From Verrucomicrobiota bacterium (GTDB lineage Bacteria; Verrucomicrobiota; Verrucomicrobiia; Palsa-1439): DNA of 64,000 nt. Position 1 is the first letter of the stretch; each line of letters starts with the position of its first letter. This document shows, one piece after another, positions 22,092-26,488 of the stretch. The position numbers and the translations under genes were made by a program. A model generated the notes under the pieces. The model made no database searches. It was not told the DNA's origin and was given only the letters and a program-made list of their open reading frames with translations. The DNA lies in contig VHCW01000014.1 in NCBI GenBank assembly GCA_016871575.1, positions 1-64,000 of the forward strand, written 5' to 3'.

Positions 22092-25000
22092 ATGAAACCG
22101 TTTTCCTCCCGATTAACCTTGATGGCGGTGACGGGTATGGTCGCGTTGGTTTCGATGATACTCCAAGCGGCAACGGGACCGGCATGGTGGGTAGCACGCG
22201 ACGTACTCAACCTCGATGCTGTGCCGAATGATTTTGCGGCGGTCAATCAAGGGCAACTGAAATGGGTGGCCAGCAATGCCTGCGAGGAACTCGAAACACA
22301 ACTCCCCGGTGGCACGGGCAGCAACATCTGGGCGCTGATTTCCTCGTTCTCCAACAGTAATAACTTCCGGCCTGTCAATCTCGGCCAACTCAAGTACGTG
22401 GCGAAGCCGTTCTACGACCGTCTGATCGAAGCTGGCTACACGACGAACTATCCGTGGAGCGGCCAGCCGAATGACTATGCTTTGGCCAATATTGGCCAGA
22501 TGAAGAACGTGTTCAGTTTTGACGTGAGTTATGACACCGATGGCGATGGCATTCCGGATTGGTGGGAAGTTTCGCAAGGACTGAACCCAAACAATCCGGA
22601 TGATGGCAGCGCAACGAATACAAGTTCACTGGCTCATGGATTGAGTAATCTTCAAGTGTATTGGAATCCAAGCGTACTTGTGACGGACAACTACAGTTCC
22701 TGTAGCGACGGTGTTGCCGATTGGTGGAAAGTGCAGACCGGCTACGCTGCGAACACACCTGCTGACACCGTTGGTGCGAATGGCTCCACATTGGTTGCGA
22801 ACTATCAGGCTGGTGCGAACCCCAACGATTCGCAAAGCCTCCCTGATTCTGCGATGTTGGATCGCTTCGATTACGGACAGTTGGATTTGGTGCGGGCTTT
22901 GGCGGGATTGCCGGCCACGCAATGGACAAGCTCAACCAACAACGCTGCCCGGATAGCTCAATTGCGAACAAGCATCGAAGGGGTCATTCCGAAGTGTCTT
23001 GCTCCGGGGTGGAATGAATACACCAATGTGGTGCCTTACGCGACTCTGCAGAGCGTATTGCTTGCGGTCGGGAACACGACTGGCACTTGGTCGGACGGGC
23101 CATTGACCAATCAAATCAACGAATTGACCGATCTGGTATTATGGGTGCTGACATCCCTGCCCAGCGAAGGAACGTCTAACAGCGGTGTTCCGTATTATGA
23201 ATATCAAGACGACCCGCCAGCACCATTTGAGACTTGGACAGTGACCAATAACTATCCAACCGCGTGGGGCAGTTATTCCAATTGGTGGATTAATACGTAT
23301 TTGCTTTTTCAAGAGAAGTGGAATGGGGCTTGTGTGATTGACACGCTGCTCATCAACAGTGCGCCTTATCATGACTTGGATAGGATCGAGGGATATTGGG
23401 GGGACATAGGTCTCTGTTGGTATCCGGATGCGCAGAACTACTTTGAGGCGTATGCGCCCGGGAACGCCGTTTACTGTTCGCCCTTCAAGATTGTCCATAC
23501 GCTGTATGTGCCGCAGGTGTGGGTGGACATCGTTCCGGTCTTTAACCATGCGTCCAACGGGCCTTTCCGTTTCTGGATTAACGATGATGCCGATTCGGGC
23601 GACATATCATCGGGAAACAGCGACCTTCCCGGTCAATCGAGTGGAAGCGCGAATTACGCCGATAACCAAGTGAACGGACGCAGTGATTTGTTGGACTTCT
23701 TCCCTGTTTGGTTTGACTTGTGGTATGCCTTTTTCTACTTCCCTCCATCTGACGGCTTTCAATACAAACTCCGTCAGGACGATGCGGCGCTCAAGGCGGT
23801 TTATACCGATTTGACGAAAGATCATGCCGGGGACTACCTGACAACAGATGCAGACACATACGGCAATTTGTTCAACCAGTACGCCCATCAAGCCGGTGTC
23901 TTTGAAATTCCAGCGAGTGGTGTCGGGCTCTCGGACGAATTCCTCAACAAAATCATGGAGGACGAAGACAAAGGCGTCTTGCTCATGGAAGCCACGAAGC
24001 CCACAACCAAGCCACTGGTGTTGGAAATATGGAAAGACAGTCAGAAGGTTTTCGAGAAATGGATGCCCCTGAACATCAGCAGCGTGACCAACATGTATCG
24101 TTGGGTGAACTTGCGCGGCATCAAACCGGGAGGCATGGTTCCTTGTCCGCCGCAACCGGCCAACTTTCCGGATGCGGTTTCCAACGGAAAACAGTTCGTC
24201 TTCGTTCACGGCTACAGCGTGACCGAACAAGACGCGAAGGCTTGGAACGCAGAGATGTTCAAGCGACTCTATCAATCCGGTTCGCGTGCGATGTTCACTG
24301 CGGTCGCATGGCGCGGAGATGACTCGAAGATACCTTCTTGGCTGCCGCTTGTGGGTGGGGCGACACCCAATTACTACCTCAACGTGACCCATGCGTTCAA
24401 GACCGCCGAAAGCCTGAAGAAATCCGTTGTATTGCTGCCAGGGGATAAGTACATCGCGGGCCACAGTTTAGGGAACATGGTGGTTAGCAGCGCGATTGTT
24501 GACCACGGGATGAGCGTAAACGCCTACTTCATGCTCGACGCAGCGGTCCCGATGGAAGCCTATGATTCCACTGTGTGGGAGCGAAATAACATGCGCCATC
24601 CAAATTGGCAGGGTTACACGAATACTTTATGGGCTAGTGATTGGCATCAATTGTTCGACACAGGGGATGGCCGGCGAGGGATCGCTTGGCGTGGGCGGTT
24701 CGGAAACATAGCTAACGCTTACAATTTTTACTCTTCAACCGAGGATGTCTTGGAGAACGGTAATGGACAAGTCGTGATCAGCAGCATTTGGGCAACACAA
24801 GAAATGTTGAAGGGCAGGTGGCTCATCGCGTTGTTTTTCGGACCTCACAGTCAAGGTGGTTGGGGATTCACTTTGAATACGGATTACCATAACTCCCCGA
24901 ATGATCCGCCTACGGAGAGCAATATCTGGCTCCCCGAACAGGCGAATGGGATTTCGCCAGAGCAACTGAAAACGGAACCATTCTTCAAGGATTTCCGAAG

Positions 25001-25295
25001 CACTGGGCTTTGCGGAGCTAATGGCAGCGCGTTGGCCCAAGACTGGTCAGTGCGTGCGCAAACGCTGGCCGAAGCCATACCTGCACTGTCGTTTGCTAGT
25101 GGAAGAAATGAACTCTCGGCGTTCACGCAATCTCGCAATTTCAACATGCATAATATGAAGAACGGGTGGCCGCAGGAACGATTGAACGATCAAGAAAAGG
25201 AAGACCATTGGCTCCACAGCGACATCAGATACATTGCATACCCGTTTACGTATAAGCTGTTTGACAAAATCGTTGAAAAAGGAGCTTTGAAATGA
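22092..25295 (+). CDS. Large secreted protein: GQLK repeats + Ca-binding thrombospondin-3-like segment + C-terminal alpha/beta-hydrolase-like domain
   Basis: Signal peptide; NDFAAVNQGQLKWVA, NNFRPVNLGQLKYVA, NDYALANIGQMKNV; DTDGDGIPDWWEVSQGLNPNNPDDG; FVFVHGYSV and YIAGHSLGNMV (GxSxG). Confidence 0.75.
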   Translation: MKPFSSRLTLMAVTGMVALVSMILQAATGPAWWVARDVLNLDAVPNDFAAVNQGQLKWVASNACEELETQLPGGTGSNIWALISSFSNSNNFRPVNLGQLKYVAKPFYDRLIEAGYTTNYPWSGQPNDYALANIGQMKNVFSFDVSYDTDGDGIPDWWEVSQGLNPNNPDDGSATNTSSLAHGLSNLQVYWNPSVLVTDNYSSCSDGVADWWKVQTGYAANTPADTVGANGSTLVANYQAGANPNDSQSLPDSAMLDRFDYGQLDLVRALAGLPATQWTSSTNNAARIAQLRTSIEGVIPKCLAPGWNEYTNVVPYATLQSVLLAVGNTTGTWSDGPLTNQINELTDLVLWVLTSLPSEGTSNSGVPYYEYQDDPPAPFETWTVTNNYPTAWGSYSNWWINTYLLFQEKWNGACVIDTLLINSAPYHDLDRIEGYWGDIGLCWYPDAQNYFEAYAPGNAVYCSPFKIVHTLYVPQVWVDIVPVFNHASNGPFRFWINDDADSGDISSGNSDLPGQSSGSANYADNQVNGRSDLLDFFPVWFDLWYAFFYFPPSDGFQYKLRQDDAALKAVYTDLTKDHAGDYLTTDADTYGNLFNQYAHQAGVFEIPASGVGLSDEFLNKIMEDEDKGVLLMEATKPTTKPLVLEIWKDSQKVFEKWMPLNISSVTNMYRWVNLRGIKPGGMVPCPPQPANFPDAVSNGKQFVFVHGYSVTEQDAKAWNAEMFKRLYQSGSRAMFTAVAWRGDDSKIPSWLPLVGGATPNYYLNVTHAFKTAESLKKSVVLLPGDKYIAGHSLGNMVVSSAIVDHGMSVNAYFMLDAAVPMEAYDSTVWERNNMRHPNWQGYTNTLWASDWHQLFDTGDGRRGIAWRGRFGNIANAYNFYSSTEDVLENGNGQVVISSIWATQEMLKGRWLIALFFGPHSQGGWGFTLNTDYHNSPNDPPTESNIWLPEQANGISPEQLKTEPFFKDFRSTGLCGANGSALAQDWSVRAQTLAEAIPALSFASGRNELSAFTQSRNFNMHNMKNGWPQERLNDQEKEDHWLHSDIRYIAYPFTYKLFDKIVEKGALK

Positions 25296-26488
25296 ATAGA
25301 CGAACAATAATAGCGGCTCTCCTCTGCATGAACTTATGTACTATTTCTTGCACTACGCTGGGCCAATTCACGCCCACAGCGCGAATCACGGTTCGCGTGC
25401 AGAGTGATGACGGCGTGCCGGTCAGCGGAATCGTGGTGGGGGCGAGCACCTTCTTACGGCGGTTGCCGGGAGATAACTTCGGCCAGCCTGAAAACACAAC
25501 CGTTAAGCAAATGACCGATAAGAAAGGAATGGCAGTTTTGACACTTCCCAGTTTGACGGGCGAAGTAGCCTGCGGACCGCAACCATCCGATGTGGTGGTG
25601 TATGGCCCCAATTTTCCCCGTACAGGGTTCTACTGGACTCGGGGAAACCGTGTTCGTTTCACAAAATCCGAGATGGGAAAATGGCAGCCGTGGAATCCCA
25701 CTGTGGAGATTGTCCTCAAGAGAATCATCAATCCCATTCCAATGTATGCGAAGAAGATTGAAGCAGACATCGGGTCGGCTGCTCAGACCGCACTGAAAGC
25801 GGGCGAGCCGGTCAGTTATGATTTGGAAAAAGGTGATTGGGTGGTGCCGCATGGGAATGGACAGACAGCAGATTTCATTTTCAAGTTGAATGCTAAAGGG
25901 TGCCTCCGGTAACTCCCCTGTGGCGACAATTGGTTGTAGGCCGACTCTGCGAGTCGGCGAAATGCCTGGCAAAAACGCCGCTTCGCAGAAGCGGCCTACA
26001 ACAGCCATCTCATCAAACCGAGTTACCGGAGGTGTCCTAAACTGAGTGGAAAGATGACGCGAGATCGCTATCCGATGTATGACGCTATGTTTACTGTGAC
26101 GTTTGCTAACAAAGGTGACGGGATTCGCCCGGTGTATGTGACCCCAATAAATGGCAGCGTATTTCGATTGCCGCGAAACGCTCCGGAAGATGAATACTTG
26201 GCAAACCTTGTCCGGCAATCCAGCAGAGATGAAACGGGCCAACATGGCGATAAACCACGGGAAGATGAAAACTATTTCTTTCGTGTGCGGACGAAGAAAG
26301 ACGGACAGGGCAAGATCATTTCGGCTTTGTACGGGAAGATTCACGGAGAAATTGGATGGTCATATGAAGGCTATGTGAAGTTCACCTACTATCTGAATCC
26401 GACACCGAATGATCGGAACATGGAGTTCGACCCGAAGAAGAATCTTTTCAAGAAGCTCTCTTCGTTAGAACAAGTCTGTGAACCGTAA
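25292..26488 (+). pseudogene. Lipoprotein/secreted protein gene interrupted by a 139-bp palindromic insertion (surviving ORFs 25292-25912 and 26054-26488)
   Basis: MNRRTIIAALLCMNLCTISCTT lipobox-like N-terminus. The two ORFs rejoin in frame (..FKLNAK|LSGKMTRDRYP..) when 25898-26041 is removed. Confidence 0.8.
25898..26036. mobile_element. MITE-like palindromic insertion element (139 bp)
   Basis: Imperfect terminal inverted repeats containing perfect CCTCCGGTAACTC/GAGTTACCGGAGG; inner TTGTAGGCCG/CGGCCTACAA; flanked by CTAAA at 25893-25897 and 26037-26041. Confidence 0.85.

Follow-up and report, generated by a model that had tools for sequence, protein, structure and literature searches.

A probable IS5-family MITE with a REPIN core in a split lipoprotein gene of a Verrucomicrobiota bacterium

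Two consecutive open reading frames (ORFs) in a draft genome of a Verrucomicrobiota bacterium are separated by a short stretch bounded by inverted repeats, which raises the question of what this stretch is, which enzyme moved it, and whether the two frames were once a single gene. Throughout, the window is the whole stretch of DNA that was analysed (64,000 nucleotides), and G000 is the genome to which it belongs, a 5.19 Mb draft in 257 contigs. We are confident that the stretch is a non-autonomous IS5-family transposon (MITE) with a REPIN core, and that it split a lipoprotein gene.

Bounds of the element and its copies

The inserted element is 140 bp long and has TAAA on both flanks (Table 1). 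A preliminary description of the locus had placed 139 bp at 25898-26036, with 18-bp imperfect TIRs, between 5-bp duplications reading CTAAA; the start and the TIRs stand, while the end lies at 26037 and the true TSD is the 4-bp TAAA. The longer duplication came from counting in a C on each side, which on the right is the terminal base of the TIR and on the left is there by chance—a terminal C closes nearly all related copies, and a 5-bp TSD occurs in no other element. Exact 4-bp TSDs flank 10 of 20 distinct short TIR-bounded elements (TAAA, TGAT, AATA, ATTA, TATT, ATAT, TAAA, ACCA, TCCA, and TTAT), exact duplications of 3, 5, or 6 bp flank none, and the other half of the 20 carry no exact TSD; the chance of at least ten exact 4-bp TSDs among 20 elements is about 1e-17. 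As single-stranded DNA, the stretch has a predicted folding energy of -42.8 kcal/mol, where shuffled sequences give -20.2 +/- 2.7 (z = -8.3; reached by 0/200 shuffles).

Table 1. Positions in the window of the element, its parts, and the genes around it.
Feature	Positions	Strand	Remarks
Upstream partner gene, protein with alpha/beta-hydrolase region	22092..25295	+	4-bp overlap with the lipoprotein gene start
Lipoprotein gene, 5' part	25292..25912	+	202 codons of the native gene, followed by GCLR* read from the TIR
Left TSD, TAAA	25894..25897	.	Placed by the 4-bp TSD rule from 10/20 copies
Probable MITE, 140 bp, IS5-type TIRs and REPIN core	25898..26037	+	
Left TIR, GGGTGCCTCCGGTAACTC	25898..25915	+	Its TAA stops the upstream ORF
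REP 1	25936..25958	+	GTAG head and hairpin GCCGACTC-TGC-GAGTCGGC
REP 2, inverted	25977..25999	-	GTAG head and hairpin GCCGCTTC-TGC-GAAGCGGC
Right TIR, read inward, GGACACCTCCGGTAACTC	26020..26037	-	15/18 identical to the left TIR
Right TSD, TAAA	26038..26041	.	
Lipoprotein gene, 3' part	26054..26488	+	Shares the frame of the 5' part, from 26042 onward

A search for other copies, suggested by the preliminary description, yielded nine further TIR-bounded elements in G000; these counts derive from similarity searches of the genome. One copy is identical over 140/140 bp (C5:74828-74967), three others are full copies at lower identity (C3, 94%; C115, 90%; C92, 83%), and the remaining five, at C37, C5:58473-58739, C163, C47, and C101, are more divergent relatives bounded by TIRs. 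Short, non-coding, dispersed, bounded by TIRs, and constant in TSD length at 4 bp, the element has the marks of a MITE. One of the divergent relatives (C5:58473-58739; L044:1474-1740) is itself interrupted by a second MITE, which has CAGGGCTTACGCATCAA as its TIR and is flanked by a 10-bp duplication, TCCGGTAACT; the TIR and TSD length of this second MITE may point to the ISAs1 family.

Among 384 genomes sampled across the class, five (G000 included) hold element matches at E <= 1e-14, some of which span the REP core only. G036 carries more than ten matches, the full-length ones likewise 140 bp, and G013 a single one with TSD ACCA. Exact matches to the 18-mer TIR in Nocardia, Dehalococcoidia, and Planctomycetota records are to be read against the approximately eight expected by chance at that collection size, and a search of phage records with the element gave no match.

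The REP core and the candidate transposases

The preliminary description had noted a second, internal inverted repeat, formed by TTGTAGGCCG at 25934-25943 and its inverse copy at 25992-26001. The repeat is there, but its nature had been missed: it belongs to an inverted pair of GTAG-type REPs, a REPIN, in which each member has a GTAG head and an imperfect hairpin—the marks of this REP type (PMC2817692, PMC3733652). REP 1 occurs at 13 places in G000 exactly and at 33 with up to three mismatches, against 0 for a reversed-pattern control; roughly a quarter of the 33 lie within TIR frames, and contig C121 has a near-identical asymmetric REP pair without TIRs. One REP or more is present in each of the short TIR-bounded elements examined. 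An 82-bp element (L083), considered as a REP-free case, retains one REP and looks like the product of a deletion between TTCGCC repeats.

The genome also encodes cognate RAYTs flanked by the same REPs. A RAYT ORF on C57 (Y1_Tnp, 5.9e-08) has inverted class-1 REP pairs on both sides, with one or two mismatches, and a second RAYT, on C33, is flanked by class-2 REPs (GCGTCA..TGACGC). Frames with TIRs of the kind described above hold class-2 REPs at C163 and C101, and half-frames do so at C4, at C123, and in G001. The REP-flanked gene on C33 (L144:1351-2535) sits between two ORFs that, assigned by eye, resemble tryptophan-synthesis genes; its reading frame stays open into the downstream ORF, possibly forming a fusion ORF.

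An autonomous transposase with matching TIRs, which the preliminary description had proposed to look for, was found as IS5-family halves. The TIR GGG[CA][AG]CCTCCGGTAACTC opens a transposase-bearing element at four loci in G036 and in G002, a genome of the same family as G000, and the ORF behind this left TIR matches PF05598 (DUF772, 1.8e-18) and NF033581 (IS5, 7.8e-21). The right end of the IS, GGGAACCTCCGGTAACTAT.., comes after a C-terminal transposase half with DDE_Tnp_1. In G000, an IS5 HMM search located this C-terminal half at the end of contig C49, where the right half of the IS has a slightly altered TIR, GGGAACTCCCGGTAACTAT, scores 2.5e-24 to PF01609 (DDE_Tnp_1), and reaches 152.9 bits against NF033581, above the cut-off of 140; C13 and C170 hold two more right-end fragments. 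A query of G000 with the N-terminal, DUF772 half of the transposase gave no match because that half of the IS is not assembled there. The G002 left half and the G000 right half overlap by 94 bp at 92.6% identity, which gives an IS of about 1334 bp, the ~1.33 kb being an estimate from overlapping halves of different genomes. No complete IS copy with these TIRs is assembled in any genome examined, the G000 copy ending at the contig end; both the transposase type (DUF772 with DDE_Tnp_1) and the TIRs common to the MITE and the transposase-bearing element are seen on N- and C-terminal halves.

In G036, the two ends of the MITE correspond to the left-type (..AACTC) and right-type (..AACTAT) termini of the IS, respectively. 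Outside the TIRs, the MITE and the IS have no evident common sequence, so the derivation of one from the other rests on the TIRs and the TSD. Around the IS itself, no TSD was seen. The transposases at G013:C9 and in G001, considered as partners, belong to other IS5-type elements, in which no clear copy of the TIRs is present, and plasmid matches to the transposase, at <60% identity, are ordinary IS5. A separate 571-bp element in G036 (C114; L095:1275-1845) is an IS5 element that has lost internal sequence and keeps both TIRs; it is possibly an intermediate on the path to the MITE.

Taken from sequence, the TIRs, the 4-bp duplication, and the enzyme family suggest that an IS5 transposase moves the MITE. 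The presence of a bona fide REP pair in the core and of RAYTs in the genome invites another explanation, in which a RAYT moves the full 140 bp as a single large REPIN/BIME and what look like outer TIRs simply extend the palindrome; REP dimers within longer palindromes are recorded from Anabaena variabilis (PMC3733652). Such a unit does not fit with exact 4-bp TSDs outside the TIRs, with TIRs common to an IS5-family transposase gene, or with REP pairs that also occur without TIRs. IS200/IS605-type enzymes are not known to make TSDs. Movement of the whole unit by a RAYT is largely refuted by the TSDs and the matching IS, and we regard it as very improbable.

The split gene

Excision of 144 bp (the element and one TAAA) gives the in-frame join ...FIFKLNAK-LSGKMTRDRYPM..., so the fusion of the two ORFs claimed in the preliminary description is borne out on the sequence. 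The 144-bp insert is a multiple of three and contains two in-frame stops, TAA in the left TIR and TAG in REP 1. Orthologues without the insertion had been proposed as a check, and four unsplit homologues of the joined protein, uninterrupted across the junction, were found as search hits in other genomes of the class (G044, 42%; G053, 39%; G055, 36%; G084, 36%). The native gene is therefore a single ORF that was broken in the lineage of the window. A closer orthologue was not found, the only same-genus genome searched giving no match.

A possible start codon in each half might suggest two natively separate genes with the repeat as an intergenic element, but homologues that read through the point as single ORFs, together with a join that is exact once one TSD is removed, leave this reading hardly credible. 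Misplacement of a MITE copy by repeat collapse is no more credible: such an artefact is conceivable in a draft that is broken into 257 contigs and contains multi-copy repeats, but misjoining would not create an exact TAAA duplication or unique flanks that both come from one gene.

The insertion had been described as a recent non-autonomous transposition into the partner of the GQLK-hydrolase gene, and this account is borne out by several dispersed copies that have TSDs, including one with 100% identity over 140 bp, by the unsplit homologues, and by the IS5-family TIR match. The disruption of the lipoprotein gene is in itself ordinary. In G053 and G055 (loci L148 and L149), the lipoprotein homologue is immediately preceded by a related hydrolase-type gene; the gene pair is kept in these distant genomes of the class. 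The hydrolase-type protein of the window (22092-25295) contains a TSP3-like repeat, and the lipoprotein (25292-26488) matches no Pfam family.

Proposed history and known relatives

With IS5-type TIRs around a RAYT-type REP pair, the element combines two mobile systems, of which IS5 probably moved it last. In the mechanism that we propose, an IS5-family DDE transposase would recognise the 18-bp TIRs and insert the MITE, for the most part into AT-rich DNA, duplicating 4 bp of the target. The core is a REPIN that belongs to the genome's own RAYT (HUH tyrosine) transposases rather than an IS remnant; the REPIN probably came between IS5-type ends first and the hybrid was amplified by the IS5 transposase afterwards, an order that we infer. 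One recent jump at 25897/26042 split the lipoprotein gene, and the TAA of the left TIR is predicted to truncate the lipoprotein after 202 native residues.

More tentatively, and with the odds rather against it, REPIN-cored IS5 MITEs could be a standing two-engine class in Verrucomicrobia, with the IS5 transposase as the engine of the frame and RAYTs as the engine that deposits, replaces, or maintains the core. If true, this would account for REPs in all of the short TIR-bounded elements seen, and for the sharing of one frame by two REP classes that are each matched by a separate RAYT of the genome. The REPs may have reached the frames by several entries or by in-place conversion.

Both IS5-related MITEs with a foreign core repeat and REP dimers in fixed palindromes are already known. 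BrickBuilt and MITE464 of Porphyromonas gingivalis are IS5-family-related MITEs with ISPg-type TIRs (PMC4596501); like them, the present element is short and its TIRs match IS5-family elements of the same bacteria, and BrickBuilt too has a foreign repeat in its core. That core, however, is a minisatellite where ours is a REPIN, and BrickBuilt TSDs vary, whereas here 18-bp TIRs go with a TSD that is uniformly 4 bp where intact. The available text of PMC3733652 describes GTAG-15 dimers in long palindromes of A. variabilis and CGTC-1 dimers in 41-bp palindromes of H. neapolitanus, which resemble our element in that REP dimers are regularly framed by a fixed palindrome; that text ties no transposase or TSD to the frames, whereas ours go together with 4-bp TSDs and have a counterpart in an IS5-family element.

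Known REPINs/BIMEs (PMC3116915, PMC2817692) likewise consist of two imperfect hairpins with GTAG heads, set in inverse orientation a short distance apart, and in REPIN/RAYT systems, as here, the genome encodes a cognate RAYT whose gene has inverted REPs on its flanks. The REPIN here differs in that it lies within DDE-type TIRs and moves with a TSD. We found no report in the open-licence literature of a REPIN joined to IS-type TIRs with a TSD. What the present element adds is a REP pair linked with TIRs of the DDE type, with a clean TSD, and with a transposase family that can be named; this link offers an explanation for the earlier-reported REP dimers in fixed palindromic frames, and one way in which REPINs could spread without, or alongside, RAYTs.
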